DNA from: a bacterium
Lineage (GTDB): Bacteria > JAHJDO01
Reading direction: 5' to 3'
Assembly: GCA_018812485.1 (NCBI GenBank)
Contig: JAHJDO010000058.1
Span: forward strand, 1 to 36,743
DNA length: 36,743 bases
The translations under genes were made by a program, and so were the position numbers. Below the pieces are notes generated by a model. The model was not told where the DNA came from and did not search any database. It was given only the letters and a program-made list of their open reading frames with translations. Of the stretch, positions 13,100 through 36,354 are shown piece by piece (positions within the stretch are counted from its first letter, which is position 1; each line of letters opens with the position of its first letter).

Positions 13100-13125
13100 A
13101 ATAAAACCCCCTTCGTAGTTTTTTA

Positions 13126-13262
13126 AAATCCGAAATTCTAAATCCGAAACTCGAAACAAATTCTAAATTCAAATTTTTGAAATTCAAAACACCGTTTTGA
13201 GCATTTGTATTTTTGTCATTTGATATTGTTTCGTATTTCGTGCTTAGTGCTTCGAATTTAAT
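13126..13262 (-). repeat. repeat family A, copy 1 (panC-ilvE gap)
   Basis: About 137 bp. Read on the - strand it starts AAATTCGAAGCAC, continues with CGAAATACGAAACAATATCA, AAATGACAAAAATACAAATG, a small hairpin (TCAAAAC GGT GTTTTGA) and ends in TTTCGGATTTAGAATTTCGG. It fills most of the panC-ilvE gap. Reading it through gives false N-terminal residues on ilvE. Confidence 0.9.
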
Positions 13263-16072: not shown

Positions 16073-16177
16073 TTCCAAAAACACTTTAGTATTAAGTCAT
16101 AAGGATTAAGAATTAAGTAAAGGCATCATATACTACAAACTTAATCCTTAGAGCGAAGCGTCTTAATCCTTAATCCT
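16073..16177. repeat. repeat family C, copy 1 (dapB-folK junction)
   Basis: About 105 bp, closely similar to 19618-19723. It contains ACTTTAGTATTAAGTCATAA, AAGGATTAAGAATTAAGT and, at the other end, CTTAATCCTTAGAGCGAAGC plus GTCTTAATCCTTAATCCT. AAGGATTAAG (16101-16110) is the inverted complement of CTTAATCCTT at 16140-16149 and again at 16162-16171, so the transcript can fold. It fills the entire gap and supplies the last codons and stop of dapB. Confidence 0.9.
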
Positions 16178-19617: not shown

Positions 19618-19723
19618 TCCAAAATACTTTAGTATTAAGTCATAAGGATTAAGAATTTAAGTAAAAAAACACCACACATTATAAACTTAATCCTTAGAGC
19701 GAAGCGTCTTAATCCTTAATCCT
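19618..19723. repeat. repeat family C, copy 2 (gspK-prfB junction)
   Basis: About 106 bp, near-identical to 16073-16177 at both ends, with the middle AC-rich part more different. It shares TACTTTAGTATTAAGTCATA and ACTTAATCCTTAGAGCGAAG in the same orientation. It fills the gspK-prfB gap and its edge supplies the prfB GGAG. Confidence 0.9.
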
Positions 19724-19727
19724 GCTT

Positions 19728-22700
19728 TTACCTTTCATAAATAACCGTGATCTTCCTCTCCCCAAGCACCTCGTCGTCAGTATCAAAAGTTCCGTTCCCA
19801 TTCTTATCCAGAATTGACTGACCTGTGCAGATTATTTTGAACACATTGGATTTTGTTGTAATGAGGTTGGAGATAGGTTTGAATTCATCAATGTCAATGC
19901 CAGTTACATCAAGAATTTCGCCGATATTATGAAATGGTTTAGCATAGCCAACAATAGCGTTTGCTAGGGTAGAATCTACATCTTTTAGCCCCTGAAGTAC
20001 AAGTGTGTTTGCTGTATTTATATTCAATCTTCCATAAGTCTTTGAGGCTGGTGTGAGGAGAATATAATCAAAGTATGTTGAGTCTGAACTAACATCTGGA
20101 GCCAGAAGAGCGACATTCAAAGTAGTATCTGATACAACAACCTGTCCAAACCTAGCGCCATAATCCGTGCCAGGAGTAATAATTGCAGTATCGTTGCCTA
20201 CTCTCACCCTCATTGCCCCGCCTTCCCTGCCATAAACATACATGATATAGGTATCCGCTTCAAACCTATCTATCGTTGTGTACCATGTCCATGTATCCTC
20301 TGTTGAACTTGCTGAACTGGCTGCCTTAAACCAGTACAGGTCTCCGGGATTTGTAGAACGCGCTATCTCTGAGGTTGGTATTACCTCTGGAGAAGAGCCC
20401 CAATTTGAATCTGGATGATATCCAAACTCCGCGTCAAGCCGCCTTCCCGAAATAGTAATCCTGTCCGCAATATTCTTTATTCTTGCCTCAGTATCCCCAA
20501 TATTAGTCCATGCAGTTTTGCTGTAGGATACATCCGCAATCTCTCCTATGTTTGCGAAAGGAGAGTTTTTAACTTTGATAGTATTAGATGAAGAATAATT
20601 GCTGTTTGCAGACGTTGGAGTTCCTCTGTCTGCACCTGTGTACACCAGCCATGTATCAAAAATTCCTGAATCATTCAGTACATCCGTTCCCAAATAAGTC
20701 GGGTCATTCCTTTCCATAGAATAAAAATCATTATCCTGTATTATCTGACTATCCCATAGAACCTGATCAACGATATGTCCCGCGGGATTGCCTGTGGTTG
20801 GGGCGATAGGTCCGTCATAAAGCCGCAGAGGACTATCCACTAAAACCGTATCACAAAGAATATCATCCAGAACGTCATTCGTAAAACCAAGCTGATAAAC
20901 CCTAGCTGAAGTTGCGCTGGTATATGTATTTGTAAAATAGATACCGTTATTATATACCTCAGAACCGTTATCAATAGTTGAATCATCCCTATCTATTGCA
21001 AGAACTATTGTATCTCCACCGCTACTGTCTCCCATTGCAGCAATACTTGTCCCGCTTGGAATAGTCCCAACCTGACCATTTGGAAATTCAAGATGCCAGC
21101 CGTCCATTGTAACTGCATTTTCGGAAATATTCACAAGCTCAACATATTCGCAGTCCGGGGACTGGGAGAGGTCAACGCGGTACCATGTGTCAGTTGCGTT
21201 AGCCGTCTTTATATTAAGCTTGAATATTCCACCTGTGATAACTACTGTATCTCCAGTCGTTGTATCGGGTAGAGGTTTTCCTGTATTATCAGACCAAGAG
21301 CCAATTCCATCAGGATAAACAGAGTAATCTACATTTCCTCCAGAAAGTCCGTAAATACGTACTTTATATGTTCCATTAGTAATGCCTGACCAACTCCATA
21401 TGCCAGTATCAAATGAAGCAGTTGGTTGGCTTGTCCAAGTAGAAGCAGCGTACGCCCATCCAGGACTACCCGAGCCGTCATCATTACATTCTGCAGTAGC
21501 AGGTGCATCCTCCCTGAACACAGGTCTTACCATAACCTCATTTATTCTTATGCCTTCAACGCCGTAGCGGGTAAGTACAATGCCAGTCGGGTCTTCAATA
21601 TCAATTCGTGTTGAGCCGTTATCACGGTCTCTAAAATCAATTATGTTAACTGCCATCTGCGCAAGCTCTGCTGTTGTAGCAGAAGTTCCCCAATAATCAA
21701 AGGCGTCCCTCAGAGTTGAATATAATTCCATTGCAGAGCTTACTGCGTTGATGTTTAAGCGCGCAAGTCCTGAATCCGTAAGGTTTTTGTCAGAAGAAAA
21801 GGTCGTGATGTATGAATCAAACAAAGCGTATTCATCACCATCTATCCCTGCAAGTGAAACGATCTCGGCAGGAGTCAGATAAGGCGTATCAGCGCTGAGA
21901 TTGCTGGAATCAGTGTATGGGCTGGCAATATAAAACTCTGCGGAATCATCTGTCCCCTCATCCCCTTCGTCAGCCCCATCAGTCCCAGCAGGGTCATTGT
22001 CTCCATCATTATCTATCCCGTCATTATTAAGTATGACACTATCTGCATTATCGTCATAACCCGAAATCCCGGAATGGCCATCTGTCCCATAGCGCACATT
22101 TATAATTTCTTGACCACTAACGCTGGCAACATCGCAAACAGGATCAATATTTATTTCGCCTGTCGTCCATCCTTCGTTTCCCAAAGAACCGTCCTTATAA
22201 CCAGCTGTATTTATATTTATCTTGCCTGACTCATCCAGAACCAGAACAGCGTATCTGCCAATCAGGTGACCCTGCGAATCCTTCAGATATATCCAGTGAG
22301 AATCTGAGCCGGCAGGCATTCCTCCTAAATTACTAGAAACTATGTCATCATCATTGTTTACACATGAATCTGCAGTTAATTGGTTAAACTCTGAAGCGAA
22401 ATTACTATTAATGCCAAAAAGAGGAGAATCATACCCCCAGTCATCCCCGTACCAGTCATATCCTTCATAACTGCAAAAAGCTGGCGGCTGATTAGATGGG
22501 TCGCCATCCTTTTTCAACACACCAATCGCATGCTGAATACCTGCTCTTGCAACATAATCCGCTTTTATCCCATTCATATAATTGGCTGCTGCGCGCTGGT
22601 CCATTATCATGCTGTATGAAAAAGCTGCAGCAATAGAAGCAAGAACAGCCATAATGGAGACAACTATTATGAGGGCAATACCATTTTTATTAGGGCAAAT

Positions 22701-22814
22701 CCGAAATCCTAAATCCGAAATTCTAAACCCCGTTTTTAACATTTGTATTTTTGTCATTTGATATTGTTTCGTATTTCGTGCTTCGTGCTTCGAATTTAAT
22801 GCTTTTGTAATCAT
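19728..22814 (-). CDS. gspK: very large GspK-like pseudopilin with lamin-tail-like domain
   Basis: 1028 residues; ordinary GspK has roughly 300-350. A 45-residue leader, mostly encoded by repeat A2, ends at NKNG, followed by the hydrophobic prepilin segment IALIIVVSIMAVLASIAAA. There is no Glu at +5, as usual in GspK. GspK-type segments are seen to about 420 (for example DESGKININTAGY, and MAVNIIDFRDRDNG at about 387). An Asp/Gly-rich stretch at 264-292 may bind Ca2+. About 422-735 resembles a lamin-tail domain (RINEVMV, CEYVELVNISENAVTMDGWH, VDQVLW, SMERNDPTYLG). Helix-hairpin-helix-like LNINTANTLVL and FHNIGEILDVTG lie at 930-972. The start overlaps the gspJ stop (ATGA). In T2SS, GspK caps the pseudopilus tip. 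Confidence 0.82.
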   Translation of the reverse strand: MITKALNSKHEARNTKQYQMTKIQMLKTGFRISDLGFRICPNKNGIALIIVVSIMAVLASIAAAFSYSMIMDQRAAANYMNGIKADYVARAGIQHAIGVLKKDGDPSNQPPAFCSYEGYDWYGDDWGYDSPLFGINSNFASEFNQLTADSCVNNDDDIVSSNLGGMPAGSDSHWIYLKDSQGHLIGRYAVLVLDESGKININTAGYKDGSLGNEGWTTGEINIDPVCDVASVSGQEIINVRYGTDGHSGISGYDDNADSVILNNDGIDNDGDNDPAGTDGADEGDEGTDDSAEFYIASPYTDSSNLSADTPYLTPAEIVSLAGIDGDEYALFDSYITTFSSDKNLTDSGLARLNINAVSSAMELYSTLRDAFDYWGTSATTAELAQMAVNIIDFRDRDNGSTRIDIEDPTGIVLTRYGVEGIRINEVMVRPVFREDAPATAECNDDGSGSPGWAYAASTWTSQPTASFDTGIWSWSGITNGTYKVRIYGLSGGNVDYSVYPDGIGSWSDNTGKPLPDTTTGDTVVITGGIFKLNIKTANATDTWYRVDLSQSPDCEYVELVNISENAVTMDGWHLEFPNGQVGTIPSGTSIAAMGDSSGGDTIVLAIDRDDSTIDNGSEVYNNGIYFTNTYTSATSARVYQLGFTNDVLDDILCDTVLVDSPLRLYDGPIAPTTGNPAGHIVDQVLWDSQIIQDNDFYSMERNDPTYLGTDVLNDSGIFDTWLVYTGADRGTPTSANSNYSSSNTIKVKNSPFANIGEIADVSYSKTAWTNIGDTEARIKNIADRITISGRRLDAEFGYHPDSNWGSSPEVIPTSEIARSTNPGDLYWFKAASSASSTEDTWTWYTTIDRFEADTYIMYVYGREGGAMRVRVGNDTAIITPGTDYGARFGQVVVSDTTLNVALLAPDVSSDSTYFDYILLTPASKTYGRLNINTANTLVLQGLKDVDSTLANAIVGYAKPFHNIGEILDVTGIDIDEFKPISNLITTKSNVFKIICTGQSILDKNGNGTFDTDDEVLGERKITVIYER
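22697..22800 (-). repeat. repeat family A, copy 2 (inside gspK leader)
   Basis: About 104 bp, lacking the central AT-rich part. It encodes gspK residues about 6-40 (N-S-K-H-E-A-R-N-T-K-Q-Y then K-T-G-F-R-I-S-D-L-G-F-R-I). On the - strand it begins with heptamer-like units CGAAGCA CGAAGCA CGAAATA CGAAACA. Confidence 0.9.
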
Positions 22815-23530
22815 TCTGCTCCCGGCATAAACACAGTGGTCTCAAATGTCTGAGTGTCTTCTCTCGCCTCTTCATCCCTTGTTTTGAGAACTATCTTTAT
22901 TTTCTTTGGTAAGCCGTCAGCATATCCATCAATTGGATATTGATCCTTAAGAGAATCCCAGTTTACCTGGGAATCCGCATCAACATTGTTATAGTAATAA
23001 TAAAAGCGAAGTCCTGCCACCGCAAGGCCAAGTGGATTATCATTAGTAGACCCGGAATATGTCTCATAAATAAAATCAGCAGTTACTCTACGATGCTGCA
23101 TAAGTTCCGTGTCATCCTTTACCCAGTAACCTAATTCACACAGATCAGACTTAGTAGTGTTTCCAGACTCTTCTAAATCGGACTTTGGATATAGAGGAGC
23201 GACAAAAAATAGTTCATCCTTAGTGCTTCTTGTTCCCTTTACCTTAGATTCTGATTCATCCACTCCAAGCATGTATATCTTTCTCGCCTCATTGACCATT
23301 GCACAGGAGATCTCTCTTGACATCATTTCCAGAATTGCTCTTGCATTCTGATACCGCTCCATCCTCACATTGCCCTTTGTCCATGAATCAGTGCCGCCTT
23401 TAAAAATAGTGTAAATGCCTGTTATCAATAAAGCCAGAACTGCTGTTGTAATCATGATTTCAATCAATGTAAAAGCACGGCAGTCATTGGCTGTAATTTT
23501 TAATTTTGAATTTTGAATTTTGAATTTCAT
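22811..23530 (-). CDS. gspJ: GspJ-like pseudopilin
   Basis: 239 residues from the ATG at 23530. Other in-frame ATGs lie at 23542 and 23584 inside gspI, and no strong ribosome binding site decides between them. The leader MKFKIQNSKLKITANDCRA is encoded by a family B repeat; cleavage is expected between A and F in RA-FTLIEIMITTAVLALLITG, with Glu at +5. The globular part is about 200 residues, with ARAILEMMSREISCAM and RFYYYYNNVD as seen in GspJ proteins. A minor pseudopilin of the tip complex with GspI and GspK. Coupled to gspK by ATGA and to gspI with a 1-base gap. Confidence 0.8.
   Translation of the reverse strand: MKFKIQNSKLKITANDCRAFTLIEIMITTAVLALLITGIYTIFKGGTDSWTKGNVRMERYQNARAILEMMSREISCAMVNEARKIYMLGVDESESKVKGTRSTKDELFFVAPLYPKSDLEESGNTTKSDLCELGYWVKDDTELMQHRRVTADFIYETYSGSTNDNPLGLAVAGLRFYYYYNNVDADSQVNWDSLKDQYPIDGYADGLPKKIKIVLKTRDEEAREDTQTFETTVFMPGAE
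23494..23527 (-). repeat. repeat family B, copy at gspJ start
   Basis: The - strand shows repeated AAATTCAAAATTCAAAATTC followed by AAAATTAAAAATTA. It encodes F-K-I-Q-N-S-K-L-K-I right after the start codon. Same motif as at 25153-25185 and 25568-25599. Confidence 0.8.
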
Positions 23531-23531
23531 T

Positions 23532-23960
23532 TTACTTAACATAAAGCGTTGTAAATTCCTCAATTCTGGTATCGCCTCCATCATTGGAATAAATCAATAC
23601 AGATGCCCTGTATAGATTCTCAACATTCATAAGATTATTAAGATTAGTAACTGTCCGTACCCATGAAAACGAAGGATATTCTGAAAAAATTGTGTTACTT
23701 GTTGTGCTGTCTATGGGTTTACTCTGCTCAATATCACTCATTTTCTGCTGACCGAGAAATGTCATCATTGTGTGATCACCAGCATGCTTGCTTGCCCTGA
23801 GACCTACAGGGAACATTTGAATAAGTCCAAGAAGAGCGATAGACAGAATAGCCATTGAAATAACAAGTTCAAGAAGACTGAAAGCACGAGTAGAGCAAAT
23901 CCGAAACAAATTTAAAATTCTAATTCTCAAAATTCTAAACATTATCTTCGTTTCACTCAT
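23532..23960 (-). CDS. gspI: GspI/PilV-like minor pseudopilin
   Basis: 142 residues. The start is fixed by TAATG overlap with the gspH stop. A 26-residue leader, partly from truncated repeat A3, ends at STRA, then FSLLELVISMAILSIALLGLIQMFPVG with Glu at +5. -1 is Ala instead of the usual Gly. The short globular part (QKMSDIEQSKPI and so on) and position between gspH and gspJ fit GspI; a PilV-type minor pilin is the alternative. Confidence 0.78.
   Translation of the reverse strand: MSETKIMFRILRIRILNLFRICSTRAFSLLELVISMAILSIALLGLIQMFPVGLRASKHAGDHTMMTFLGQQKMSDIEQSKPIDSTTSNTIFSEYPSFSWVRTVTNLNNLMNVENLYRASVLIYSNDGGDTRIEEFTTLYVK
23897..23943 (-). repeat. repeat family A, copy 3 (truncated, inside gspI leader)
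   Basis: Only the distal third of the element is present (TTTAGAATT, AGAATTAGAATTTTAAATTT, GTTTCGGATTTGC). It encodes F-R-I-L-R-I-R-I-L-N-L-F-R-I of the gspI leader. The CGAAGCA heptamer end is missing. Confidence 0.8.
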
Positions 23961-24658
23961 TATTCTCTACTCGTTTTTATCCTGCCTGTAATTCCTGTTA
24001 TTCCAATACATGAGGTGTCTTCATGTGTTCCATCACTAATCAAAATTGCTGACCCATCAGTCTTTGATGCCCCACCTGTAGGTGTAAAATAAATGTATTT
24101 TACAGTAAGAGCAGCTGGATCTGAATCATTCGGAAATGGAACCCCATTAGGACTGTATACAGGCAAACCTCCAGTTACTCCATCTGTCATAATTATTGTC
24201 TTAGGCAAAGTTTTCCAGTTAGTTACAGAGCCTCCTTCATCATAGTCATCAGGATCCCAGTAAATTTTTACCGCGTATCCAAGGTTGTGTGCATCCGTAT
24301 TGAAGTTAAAAAGAACCGCGCACTTTTTTCTTCTCTTTATCGCATGACTGCGCGCAGTGCGAAGAACGGAAACAACCATCTGCGCTCCGCTCTTTATCCT
24401 GGAATTTCTTGTAAACTGGACAAAGGAGGGGATTGCCGCAACAAGCATAATGCCCATGATTGCAAGCACTATCATTAATTCCACTGCTGTAAAAGCGCGA
24501 GTAGAACAAATCCGAAATCCGAATATCGAAACTCGAAACAAATTTAAAATTCTAATTTTCAAAATTCTAAACCCTGTTTTGAACATTTGGATTTGGGTCA
24601 TTTGATATTGTTTCGTATTTCGTGCTTCGTGCTTCGAATTTAATCTTTTATTTGCCAT
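23960..24658 (-). CDS. gspH: GspH/FimT-like pseudopilin
   Basis: 232 residues from the ATG at 24658, just after the gspG2 stop; an in-frame ATG at 24685 inside gspG2 is less likely. The leader is 55 residues, unusually long, and almost all of it is repeat A4. It ends STRA, then FTAVELMIVLAIMGIMLVAAIPSF with Glu at +5. VLRTARSHAIKRRKKCAVLF followed by a beta-rich C-terminal part fits GspH/FimT. Translation could also begin at internal Met20 or Met25 of the leader, giving a leader of about 31-36 residues. Confidence 0.78.
   Translation of the reverse strand: MANKRLNSKHEARNTKQYQMTQIQMFKTGFRILKIRILNLFRVSIFGFRICSTRAFTAVELMIVLAIMGIMLVAAIPSFVQFTRNSRIKSGAQMVVSVLRTARSHAIKRRKKCAVLFNFNTDAHNLGYAVKIYWDPDDYDEGGSVTNWKTLPKTIIMTDGVTGGLPVYSPNGVPFPNDSDPAALTVKYIYFTPTGGASKTDGSAILISDGTHEDTSCIGITGITGRIKTSRE
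24508..24644 (-). repeat. repeat family A, copy 4 (inside gspH leader)
   Basis: Full-length copy, about 137 bp, with the heptamer end (CGAAGCACGAAGCACGAAAT) and the far end ATTCGGATTTCGGATTTG. It encodes gspH residues about 6-50. The middle differs from copy 1 (AGGGTTTAGAATTTTGAAAA). Confidence 0.9.
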
Positions 24659-24660
24659 TC

Positions 24661-25188
24661 TTAGTCTGTCCCCGTATCCCAACATGTTATATCATCATCT
24701 CCACCACTGTCATTGGTTTTATCTTTACCATAAGACCAGAGATCATAACTACGATTATTAAGTGGATTATGGTAAGTAGCAGAGGTGTCTCCAGGGGCTC
24801 TATATTGATATTTTGTTCCATAAGGATCATTGGGAATATCCTTTGAAAGATAAGGTCCGCGTCCATTAGTTCCTACTGCCTGTAACATTCTCTCTAATTC
24901 AGGGATATTTCCATTTACATTAATACTACCATGTAAGTCTTCTCCACTTTGCCCTGGATATATCCCATAATCCGTCTGATACATTGCTAACGCGTTCTCA
25001 AGGCTGTGAATGTCCGCTCTTGCACGTGTTTTCTTCGCCTTGTCAATCTGCTTCATAAAGTTCGGCATTACAATACCTGCAAGAAGCACAATGATGCCTA
25101 TTACAACCAAAAGCTCAATAAGCGTGAACCCCGCCCCGAAAGCTTTCGGGACAATTTTTAATTTTGAATTTTTAATTTTAAATTTCAT
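24661..25188 (-). CDS. gspG: GspG-like major pseudopilin, second copy
   Basis: 175 residues from the ATG at 25188, which has a strong ribosome binding site (AGAGGAGGGG); a longer frame to 25239 lies in gspG1 and is rejected. The 20-residue leader (family B repeat plus a palindrome) ends at FGAG, then FTLIELLVVIGIIVLLAGIVMPNF with Glu at +5. KTRARADIHSLENALAMYQTDYGIYP and the C-terminal DPYGTKYQYRAPG, NNRSYDLWSYGKD and the acidic GGDDDITCW tail match T2SG-family pseudopilins, including the possible Ca2+-binding loop. This copy is closer to classical GspG than the first. Confidence 0.85.
   Translation of the reverse strand: MKFKIKNSKLKIVPKAFGAGFTLIELLVVIGIIVLLAGIVMPNFMKQIDKAKKTRARADIHSLENALAMYQTDYGIYPGQSGEDLHGSINVNGNIPELERMLQAVGTNGRGPYLSKDIPNDPYGTKYQYRAPGDTSATYHNPLNNRSYDLWSYGKDKTNDSGGDDDITCWDTGTD
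25133..25152. repeat. palindrome in gspG2 leader
   Basis: CCCGAAAGCTTTCGGG at 25135-25150 is a perfect 16-bp palindrome, flanked by GCC and GAC. It encodes V-P-K-A-F-G of the leader. The same element occurs in gspG1 at 25548-25567. Confidence 0.9.
25153..25185 (-). repeat. repeat family B, copy at gspG2 start
   Basis: The - strand reads AAATTTAAAATTAAAAATTC then AAAATTAAAAATT directly after the ATG, giving K-F-K-I-K-N-S-K-L-K-I. Nearly the same as the gspG1 copy. Confidence 0.85.
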
Positions 25189-25198
25189 TTCCCCTCCT

Positions 25199-25603
25199 CT
25201 AAAAATTAATTGTCTCTGATATGCCCTTGCTGCTTCCATCAGTTATTGTGTAGCTGCCTCCTTCCTCTGCTGGTGTATATACATAATCTCCTCCCCAGGG
25301 ATCTTTCGGAACTGCTTTGCTTAGATATTTCCCCGATACAAGAACAGCAATGCTCGCAGGAAGGTCTCCGCCATTATCAGCTCTGAAAAGATCAACGCTT
25401 TTTCTTAAGAGCACCACATCTGCCTGCGCCTTTCCCATCTTGGATTTCTCAAGTCCTTTAAAATAATTAGGCACTATTATTGAAGCAAGCAATGTGATAA
25501 TTGCCACTACAACCAATAACTCAATAAGGGTGAAACCACGGCAGCCTGTCCCGAAAGCTTTCGGGACAATTTTTAATTCTGAATTTTTAATTTTGAATTC
25601 CAT
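25199..25603 (-). CDS. gspG: GspG-like major pseudopilin, first copy
   Basis: 134 residues from the ATG at 25603 with AGGAGG at 25614-25609; a GTG two codons upstream overlaps that site and is less likely. The 23-residue leader MEFKIKNSELKIVPKAFGTG plus C-R-G comes from a family B repeat and a palindrome. Then FTLIELLVVVAIITLLASIIVPNYF with Glu at +5. The globular part (QADVVLLRKSVDLFRADNGG, DPWGGDYVYTPAEEGG) fits GspG or a PilE-like major subunit. It is the first gene after the sigma-54-type promoter, so it is probably the most expressed pseudopilin. Confidence 0.85.
   Translation of the reverse strand: MEFKIKNSELKIVPKAFGTGCRGFTLIELLVVVAIITLLASIIVPNYFKGLEKSKMGKAQADVVLLRKSVDLFRADNGGDLPASIAVLVSGKYLSKAVPKDPWGGDYVYTPAEEGGSYTITDGSSKGISETINF
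25548..25567. repeat. perfect 20-bp palindrome in gspG1 leader
   Basis: GTCCCGAAAGCTTTCGGGAC is fully self-complementary. It encodes V-P-K-A-F-G-T. Same core as at 25133-25152, at the same place relative to the start codon. Confidence 0.95.
25568..25599 (-). repeat. repeat family B, copy at gspG1 start
   Basis: The - strand reads AATTCAAAATTAAAAATTCA then GAATTAAAAATT, directly after the ATG. Confidence 0.85.
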
Positions 25604-25636
25604 CTCCACCTCCTTTTCATCCCCATATTACTATAA

Positions 25637-25652: not shown

Positions 25653-25667
25653 AATATTATTAAAAGC

Positions 25668-25797
25668 AAATCCGAAATCCGAATATCGAAATCCTAAACA
25701 AATTCTAAATTCAAATTTTCGAAATTTCAAACTGTTTTGAATTTTGTATTTTGGTCATTTGATATTGTTTCGTGCTTTGTGCTTCGAATTTCGTGCT
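25668..25797 (-). repeat. repeat family A, copy 5 (kinase 3' end and gap)
   Basis: About 130 bp. Its first part encodes the last 23 residues and stop of the histidine kinase; the rest lies in the gap before the sigma-54 promoter. It has one CGAAGCA-type unit changed (AAGCACAAAGCACGAAAC). Confidence 0.9.
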
Positions 25798-26950
25798 TTT
25801 CCCTTCCCATGTGTGCGGTTTTTCTCACTGGCAAACTAACAGTAAAACTTGTTCCCTTTCCAACTTCCGATTGAACGGAGATATCTCCATTAAGACTTTT
25901 TATTAATGACTTACAGATGTAAAGTCCAAGTCCTGTCCCCTTTCCCGTCTCTTTTGTAGAAAAAAACGGAGTAAATATTCCCTTTAAATTTTCAGGCGCA
26001 ATCCCACAGCCTGTGTCAGTGAAAACAATTTCTATTCGAGATGCCTCTGCGTCAGCATCTGTATATATCGTAAGTCTCCCACTATCTCCCATAGATTGAT
26101 AGGCATTAGCAATTATATTCAAAAATACCTGTTTCAACTGATCTGGGTTGGCTTTTATCTTTGGTAATCTTATAGCATATTTTTTCTCTACTTTTATGCC
26201 TGAAAATTTCTGAATGTCCTCTGATTGGCTCTCAAAAGAACTCAGCGTATCGTCAAGCACCTCATTAACATCAATCATATCCACATCCTTATCCTTGGAT
26301 ACTGAAATTCTGGAAAACTGGAGTAAATCAGTAACAAGTTTATTAATGCGGTCTGTTTCTTGAAAAAGAATTCCAATTTGCTCTGATACTCCAGAACTCT
26401 GCTTCTTAAAAGCATTTTTGAGAAAAAACGCTGCATTATTAATAATCGCAAGAGGATTCCTGATTTCATGCGCCAGCTTTGCCGATATTTCTCCCATAGA
26501 GGAGAGCTTGTCCCGCTCCATAAGTTCAAACTCTGTATCAAGCAATTCCTTGTTGAGCTTCTTTAGCTCTGCCGTCCTATCCTCTACTCTTTTTTCTAGC
26601 TCCTGAGACCATTTTTTAAGCTGTTCCCTTGAGTTAACAAGGGGTTGCAAGCTCCTCTCTTGAATAAGGGGTTCTTGAACAGGGGGTTTAAACCCCCTGT
26701 TCAAGGCTGTGGATTGCAACCCTTTGTTCAAAGATCCAAATATCGGCTGAATGATAATTTTCCATATAAAGATAGAGGCAACAACCCCCAGAGAAAAAAA
26801 GATAACTGCAATAAAAAAATCCCTGTACTGAAGAAGAGGAGCCTTCCATACAATCACAGCAACGTATATAAGAAAAATGGCTAACCCGGTTAGTATAAAT
26901 AGGTATGCAAGCCGCGAAAACAGAGAAAAAAGTTTATCTTTTAATTCCAT
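25727..26950 (-). CDS. membrane sensor histidine kinase (PilS/AtoS-like)
   Basis: 407 residues. Two membrane helices lie at about 13-35 and 43-67, with a short periplasmic loop. A linker (78-107) is encoded by a palindromic element, followed by a coiled coil (about 108-150). HisKA has phospho-accepting H161 in KLAHEIRNPLAII. The ATPase domain has N-box IIANAYQSMG, G1 DTGCGIAP, F-box FTPFFSTK and G2 GKGTGLGLYI. Residues 385-407 (E-K-H-E-I-R-S-T-K-H-E and so on) are repeat A5 read through and are probably not functional. No PAS domain is seen. It overlaps the response regulator by 17 bases, so the two form a pair. Confidence 0.9.
   Translation of the reverse strand: MELKDKLFSLFSRLAYLFILTGLAIFLIYVAVIVWKAPLLQYRDFFIAVIFFSLGVVASIFIWKIIIQPIFGSLNKGLQSTALNRGFKPPVQEPLIQERSLQPLVNSREQLKKWSQELEKRVEDRTAELKKLNKELLDTEFELMERDKLSSMGEISAKLAHEIRNPLAIINNAAFFLKNAFKKQSSGVSEQIGILFQETDRINKLVTDLLQFSRISVSKDKDVDMIDVNEVLDDTLSSFESQSEDIQKFSGIKVEKKYAIRLPKIKANPDQLKQVFLNIIANAYQSMGDSGRLTIYTDADAEASRIEIVFTDTGCGIAPENLKGIFTPFFSTKETGKGTGLGLYICKSLIKSLNGDISVQSEVGKGTSFTVSLPVRKTAHMGREKHEIRSTKHETISNDQNTKFKTV
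26636..26729. repeat. in-frame palindromic element inside the kinase gene
   Basis: About 94 bp with nested inverted repeats. The core (26674-26705) is a perfect 32-bp palindrome centred on TTTAAA, with arms CTTGAACAGGGGG / CCCCCTGTTCAAG. The outer arms AACAAAGGGTTGCAA and TTGCAACCCCTTGTT (- strand) pair with one mismatch. Three direct 13-15 base variants of AACCCCTTGTTCAAG occur on one side. It keeps the reading frame and encodes residues about 75-105 of the kinase (N-R-G-F-K-P-P-V-Q and so on). Confidence 0.92.
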
Positions 26951-28298: not shown

Positions 28299-28307
28299 AA
28301 TATTTTA

Positions 28308-28434
28308 AAATTCGAAGCACGAAATACGAAACAATATCAAATTACCAAAATACAAATACTCAAAACAATGTTTTGGATTTTGAAAATTCGAATTTAGAAT
28401 TTGTTTCGAGTTTCAATATTCGGATTTCGGATTT
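28308..28434 (+). repeat. repeat family A, copy 6 (inverted, gspF-regulator gap)
   Basis: About 127 bp and the only copy in the opposite orientation: the CGAAGCA end lies at the low coordinate. It contains the small palindrome CAAAACAATGTTTTG. It fills the gap between the gspF stop and the regulator start. Confidence 0.9.
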
Positions 28435-28443
28435 GTTCATTCC

Positions 28444-36202: not shown

Positions 36203-36220
36203 AATACTCCGTTGAAAGAA

Positions 36221-36354
36221 AATCCGAAATCCTAAATCCGAAACTCGAAACAAATCCTAAATTTAAATTTTCGAAATCCAAAACATTGTTTTTGAGCATT
36301 TGTATTTTTGTTATTTGATATTGTTTCGTATTTCGTGCTTCGTGCTTCGAATTT
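36221..36354 (-). repeat. repeat family A, copy 7 (rpmE-prfA gap)
   Basis: Full-length copy of about 134 bp with two CGAAGCA units on the - strand, the ACAAAAATACAAATGCTC segment and the far end TTTCGGATTTAGGATTTCGG. It fills most of the rpmE-prfA gap. Confidence 0.9.

Follow-up and report, generated by a model that had tools for sequence, protein, structure and literature searches.

The pseudopilin genes of a type II secretion system-type operon were analysed in a 36,743-nucleotide (nt) stretch of bacterial DNA (the whole of contig JAHJDO010000058.1, assembly GCA_018812485.1, here called the window), and all six N-terminal leaders were found to be encoded mostly by dispersed repeats. Recurrent, tolerated insertion of such repeats into pseudopilin leaders is probably the best explanation. 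Re-reading of the leaders from the DNA bore out the original prediction, made from the window alone, that family A (a palindromic repeat of about 137 nt) encodes most of the gspH, gspI and gspK leaders and family B (a heptamer array of AAAATTM units) most of the gspG1, gspG2 and gspJ leaders, and that the gspK and gspH leaders reach 45 and 55 residues, respectively. The genes and leaders are listed below, with repeat residues in capitals, the cleavage site marked by a slash, and the palindrome shared by gspG1 and gspG2 shown as lower-case vpkafg.

19728..25603, minus strand: pseudopilin gene run gspK-gspJ-gspI-gspH-gspG2-gspG1, the leaders being the putative landing sites.
25535..25603, minus strand: gspG1 leader, 23 amino acids (aa), MEFKIKNSELKIvpkafgtgcrg/F; family B array 25567-25606, then the palindrome 25548-25567.
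25129..25188, minus strand: gspG2 leader, 20 aa, MKFKIKNSKLKIvpkafgag/F; family B array 25152-25191, then the gspG1 palindrome again (25135-25150).
24494..24658, minus strand: gspH leader, 55 aa, mankrLNSKHEARNTKQYQMTQIQMFKTGFRILKIRILNLFRVSIFGFRIcstra/F; native MANKR and CSTRA enclose a full-length family A repeat (24507-24644).
23883..23960, minus strand: gspI leader, 26 aa, mseTKIMFRILRIRILNLFRIcstra/F; partial family A repeat 23896-23953.
23474..23542, minus strand: gspJ leader, 23 aa, mlsKMKFKIQNSKLKItandcra/F; family B array 23494-23533.
22680..22814, minus strand: gspK leader, 45 aa, mitkaLNSKHEARNTKQYQMTKIQMLKTGFRISDLGFRICpnkng/I; family A repeat 22695-22799, an internally deleted copy.

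Five of the six genes were recovered above cut-off by the Pfam N_methyl model, and gspK was assigned by its position and GIALI helix. The features of a class III signal are present (a leader ending in Gly or Ala, a hydrophobic helix and, GspK excepted, Glu5), and the mature hydrophobic helices are intact, as predicted. Class III leaders are cytoplasmic, variable in length and cut after Gly or Ala by prepilin peptidase (PMC10191384), and a Peptidase_A24 (prepilin peptidase) gene is present in the window genome and in all four relatives introduced below. The repeats had also been described as ending at or just before the cleavage site; 5 to 11 residues in fact separate the end of A or B from that site, most of this gap being filled by the palindrome in the two gspG leaders.

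In all six leaders, the stretch from the end of the repeat to the cleavage site lacks a start codon, which places the beginning of translation either within the repeat or upstream of it. The proposed fixing of starts by gene overlap holds for gspK (ATGA), and the starts of gspG1 and gspG2 are instead set by strong Shine-Dalgarno sequences (AAGGAGGTGGAG-ATG and GAGGAGGGGAA-ATG, respectively) directly ahead of the repeat-encoded ATG. ATG and TTG codons do occur within the A copies of gspH, gspI and gspK, which would allow true starts further downstream or inside the repeats and would make the repeats 5' untranslated sequence, but this is highly improbable given the lack of any start codon beyond the repeat in all six leaders, the Shine-Dalgarno sequences of the gspG genes, the open frames, and a gspK leader that differs from that of the closest relative by 33 nt, in frame. 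The repeat leaders are presumably translated, and cleaved at the predicted sites.

Scanning GTDB contigs and searching relatives yielded four congeneric genomes with the same operon (G001 to G004; the window genome is G000), the closest being G003, in which the gspH protein is 92 % identical. The four congeners have nearly the same mature pseudopilins and different leaders. Among the 30 leaders of the five genomes, 13 are short (5 to 8 residues, e.g., MKFKRG, MRKRSG, MANKRMSG, MKNRA and MKIKNQNG) and 17 carry inserts and span 15 to 56 residues. The long leaders draw on at least five unrelated families, namely A, B, TDD (TDDRRQTTDD...SMVYGLW), SPFEGG and LTHP (ELTHPNPLLKKEG), of which the last three, found in leaders of the relatives, are multi-copy in the DNA stretches or genomes sampled. 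Empty orthologous leaders of gspG1 read MKFKKG, MKFKRG, MEFKKG or MKFRKG, and the gspG2 leader is empty in G001, G002 and G003 and holds a TDD-family repeat in G004. The gspH leader carries A in the window and B in G003 and is empty in G004, G001 and G002 (MANKRMSG, MNKRMSG and MANKRMLG, respectively), while the gspI leader carries B in G003 and is empty in G004 (MKNRA) and G002 (MRNRA). An insert is present in gspJ in all five genomes, from four different families, the relatives carrying TDD, SPFEGG or LTHP. In gspK, family A is found in both the window and G003, the window copy having a 33-nt in-frame deletion relative to the longer G003 copy, whereas G001 and G002 carry LTHP and G004 the empty MKIKNQNG. 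The choice of family tracks the genome; G002 has no A copies and uses LTHP. Relatives lacking the repeats do not share the window leaders, and their empty leaders of only 5 to 8 residues (e.g., MANKRMSG/F in gspH) show that the leader repeats of the window are insertions. As a separate observation, the pseudopilin genes (window 19729-24499) are 73-88 % identical to G003 at the nucleotide level, compared with 92-97 % for their neighbours, and gspK is the most diverged.

Selection of repeat leaders for an effect on the expression, signal recognition particle targeting or processing rate of single pseudopilins was also considered. Long leaders are known in other type 4 pilins (PMC10191384), and the repeats make most of the leaders that carry them more positively charged (mean +4.4 vs +2.4). 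The inserts nevertheless range in charge from -3 to +11, with unrelated families of differing sequence occupying the same leaders of sister species, and this swapping argues against a sequence-specific role; several sisters also retain leaders of 5 to 8 residues. The alternative raised in the original prediction, that the leaders modulate targeting or expression, drew no support, and an adaptive origin is regarded as quite unlikely.

Family A is represented by about 44 copies in the 2.68-Mb genome (172 contigs), with E-values down to 1e-36, and a 12-copy alignment gave 85 % mean column identity. For most copies both strands match the model, and the heptamer arms are inverted; folding prediction gave an imperfect structure in which only 3 pairs are compensatory. 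The family has the character of a small palindromic repeat or miniature inverted-repeat transposable element (MITE), being dispersed and short with inverted complementary halves, as in elements that need no open reading frame (ORF) of their own for mobility. As to family A outside the genus, strong full-length matches were found only in g1 genomes, with weaker matches in G005 and one in G024. The family is insertion-polymorphic at otherwise colinear sites, as seen for the first two of the following window copies.

13125..13261, minus strand: family A copy in the spacer upstream of ilvE; missing from G003, with a 132-nt length difference.
28301..28435, plus strand: family A copy in the spacer between gspF and a response regulator gene; missing from G003, with a 113-nt length difference.
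25667..25799, minus strand: family A copy over the 3' end of a histidine kinase gene, giving a 23-residue C-terminal tail.
36220..36351, minus strand: family A copy upstream of prfA; also in G003.

For family B, a 19-nt pattern gave 59 matches compared with 9 for a reversed control pattern. The palindrome following B in the gspG1 and gspG2 leaders, GTCCCGAAAGCTTTCGGGAC, belongs to a third dispersed family with further copies, so its presence in both leaders is no proof of gene conversion between gspG1 and gspG2. Mis-binning of the contig was ruled out, as the GC content and tetranucleotide profile of C58 lie within the spread of the other contigs and four other metagenome-assembled genomes have syntenic operons. 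Other repeats were noted as well. A second repeat hotspot in the window genome (C11:1-40000; L178-L179) combines five A copies that are full or near-full with numerous B arrays, one S23 gene and one repeat of the TDD family, and a further dispersed repeat, TTAATCCTTAGAGCGAAGCGTCTTAATCC, lies in the spacers before folK and prfB (window 16078-16177 and 19621-19723), where G003 has another repeat or none. The histidine kinase gene contains an imperfect inverted repeat (window 26636-26728) in a linker that varies in length and sequence among relatives, and VGTGLAPVRE/VGAGLAPAL-like inserts occur elsewhere in the same kinase (L070/L071).

When the window is compared with G003, the length at the start has changed for all 6 pseudopilin genes and for 5 of 17 comparable starts of other genes (p=0.0046), the pseudopilin genes being neighbours and the start tests therefore not fully independent; the excess over other gene starts that had been proposed as a check was thus seen in this one comparison. 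All five changed non-pilin starts are changes of non-coding spacer, so that for coding N-termini the counts are 6/6 and 0/17 (p=1e-5). At tight boundaries, defined as 25 nt or less and with boundary classes assigned by manual reading, 6/6 pseudopilin and 0/10 non-pilin boundaries changed (p=1.2e-4). Full or near-full A copies are stop-free in the frame used in 3/3 pilin cases and in 6/28 cases elsewhere (p=0.019). The main rival to tolerated insertion is a pure gene-boundary effect, in which repeats land wherever genes meet within a local hotspot, the pseudopilin leaders being struck only because these genes abut or overlap. It would account for the presence in the 36.7-kb window of 7 of the roughly 44 genomic A copies, for the 5 of 17 changed non-pilin boundaries, and for the mostly spacer location of A copies elsewhere. 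It is considered unlikely, as it does not account for the excess of changed pseudopilin starts, for the absence of change at about 10 equally tight non-pilin boundaries, or for the hits on the same leaders in three lineages (see below).

Contexts were read for all A copies and 33 B places, the sampled DNA consisting of stretches around matches and a 670-kb sample. Most copies sit in spacers or C-terminal tails, and both families also occur in frame in a few loops and in signal peptides of the Sec and lipoprotein types, at the n-region. In a list of N-terminal insertions compiled by eye, 15 of 20 in-frame copies lie ahead of a hydrophobic segment, compared with 27.7 % of 499 sampled genes (p=1.5e-5), or 8 of 13 when the seven pilins are excluded (p=0.011). 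The N-terminus of a LysM protein, for example, reads MFKILFSIWLL in G004 and MFSILKIRILNLFRISILEFRILFSIWLL, with A inserted, in G000 and G003, and LptD carries a B insert in G000, G003 and G001 and none in G002, the G004 N-terminus being short and different. Arrays of family B were observed in other settings too. Some large proteins with multiple membrane spans have at least two in-frame B arrays between hydrophobic segments (G000:C62:23898-25400, L035/L188; C11:33582-34887, L179), and a threonyl-tRNA-synthetase-like ORF (L043:12665-12690, G000:C33:92671) starts with a B array followed by AIYRHSTAHIMALAVQQLYP, its usual N-terminal domain apparently missing.

Several points weigh against tolerated insertion as the whole account. 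The concentration of A copies in the window is a local hotspot, and the N-terminal list was drawn up by eye. Of the roughly 35 further prepilins encoded in the genome, about 34 have leaders that are short and clean, only C25:11660, a GspJ-like gene adjoining other pilin-like genes, carrying a repeat, so tolerance alone does not predict insertion; the enrichment of repeats at prepilin leaders in general, as first proposed, was rejected on these counts. Family B is also found in internal stretches of a few proteins and in loops of certain soluble enzymes, so tolerated insertion does not require cleavage.

Tolerated insertion may operate as follows. Short dispersed repeats (A and B, with TDD, SPFEGG and LTHP in relatives) would insert at many places, chiefly spacers, and in a tightly packed operon insertions between genes would be tolerated only in protein segments with no particular sequence need. 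The pseudopilin leader would suit, being cytoplasmic, needing little except net positive charge and a final Gly or Ala, and being removed by prepilin peptidase. Because the leader is so little constrained and is cut off, in-frame, stop-free and mostly basic inserts would survive there and turn over, presumably at near-neutral cost, with leaders growing from 5-8 to 15-56 residues and the mature pilin left unchanged. Inserts in Sec and lipoprotein n-regions would be tolerated for the same reason. The suggestion that prepilin leaders are a tolerated landing site is therefore well supported by insertion, family swapping and the excess over other starts, with the amendment that it covers neither all prepilins nor prepilins only, Sec and lipoprotein n-regions being included.

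Two unrelated lineages (G097 and G117) also have repeat-filled pseudopilin leaders, formed from other repeats. In G117, four or five leaders of 29-56 residues contain palindromic repeats, one of which occurs 28 times genome-wide, two of these copies lying in the gspG2 and gspI leaders. In the leaders of G097 the repeats are octamer arrays (DTPIPRFPDTPIPR), and directly upstream of gspI lies an S23/IVP gene whose 3' array extends into the gspI leader. Filled leaders are not universal, since a majority of the distant gspH-like loci that were examined have short ones. A B-type array directly ahead of an FTLIE motif was rejected as a common bacterial feature, since only 2 of the 385 genomes covered by a pattern scan have it; the B form is therefore rare, and the wider phenomenon is not specific to family B.

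A candidate source of the heptamer-type repeats is offered by S23/IVP (PF05635) genes, which were found outside rRNA in G000, G003 and G097 (L194-L208) with inverted flanking arrays of 7-8-nt units that differ per element. Such element-specific arrays flank 12 of 12 tested S23 genes, and the mean similarity of the 5' flank to the inverted 3' flank is 15.2, compared with 8.2 for mismatched pairs and a maximum of 12.0 among 89 ordinary small genes (p=9e-9). One S23/IVP element of the window genome (C11:6726-7013, L202) is bounded by family B (AAATTM) arrays, and another gene (C84:27175-27486) has a B array on the one flank available. We infer that family B, and perhaps A as a gene-less analogue, belongs to the kind of element typified by S23 intervening sequences (IVS), and that family B probably moves by the mechanism of such elements. 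It is possible, though doubtful, that S23/IVP genes with inverted arrays and their gene-less derivatives form a widespread selfish class in diverse compact genomes, with export leaders (class III leaders and Sec n-regions) as their preferred coding refuge, so that parasitic DNA and not the secretion system would set leader length and sequence.

In-frame palindromic elements and a MITE-derived signal peptide are already known (PMC10969869, PMC2229807). The closest known kind, the Rickettsia palindromic elements, are likewise dispersed palindromic repeats of about 100-150 nt found in frame in protein genes at permissive positions (PMC10969869, PMC2229807), a likeness by description; they belong to another host, whereas here the insertions in coding sequence cluster in N-terminal leaders that are cleaved or target the membrane, sites are used in common by several unrelated families, and most A copies lie in spacers. 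In the YPO1552 signal peptide, the Yersinia YAPL/RU-2 MITE also provides part of an export signal as a small mobile repeat (PMC2229807), but its hydrophobic peptide helps to build a new signal, whereas here the repeat is an extra n-region placed ahead of a signal that already exists, repeatedly across many genes. The 23S rRNA IVS are selfish elements with complementary ends and an ORF for the S23 four-helix bundle (PMC4990558), and the S23/IVP genes described here have inverted flanking arrays too, in one case family B; they differ in that they are not located in rRNA and that every element has a 7-8-nt tandem unit of its own, and the leaders mostly hold gene-less arrays. The TAACTGA heptamer repeats of Beggiatoaceae are also 7-nt tandem units, mostly intergenic with some at the ORF periphery (PMC4679880), but the unit differs, a regulatory role was proposed for them, and they have no tie to export leaders or S23 genes. 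Searches of the open-access literature turned up no direct precedent for prepilin leaders that contain repeats or for array-flanked S23 genes. As far as that literature shows, it is new for pseudopilin leaders and n-regions to be occupied systematically and irrespective of the repeat family.

Cleaved or membrane-targeting N-terminal leaders would thus form a concrete class of coding sites in which dispersed repeats live within genes at little cost, and the natural before-and-after pairs between close species make the tolerance of in-frame selfish DNA directly testable. Leaders of this type are unsuited to start-site calling or to the assessment of homology, and their origin from repeats would explain the puzzlingly long, unalignable prepilin leaders of uncultured bacteria.

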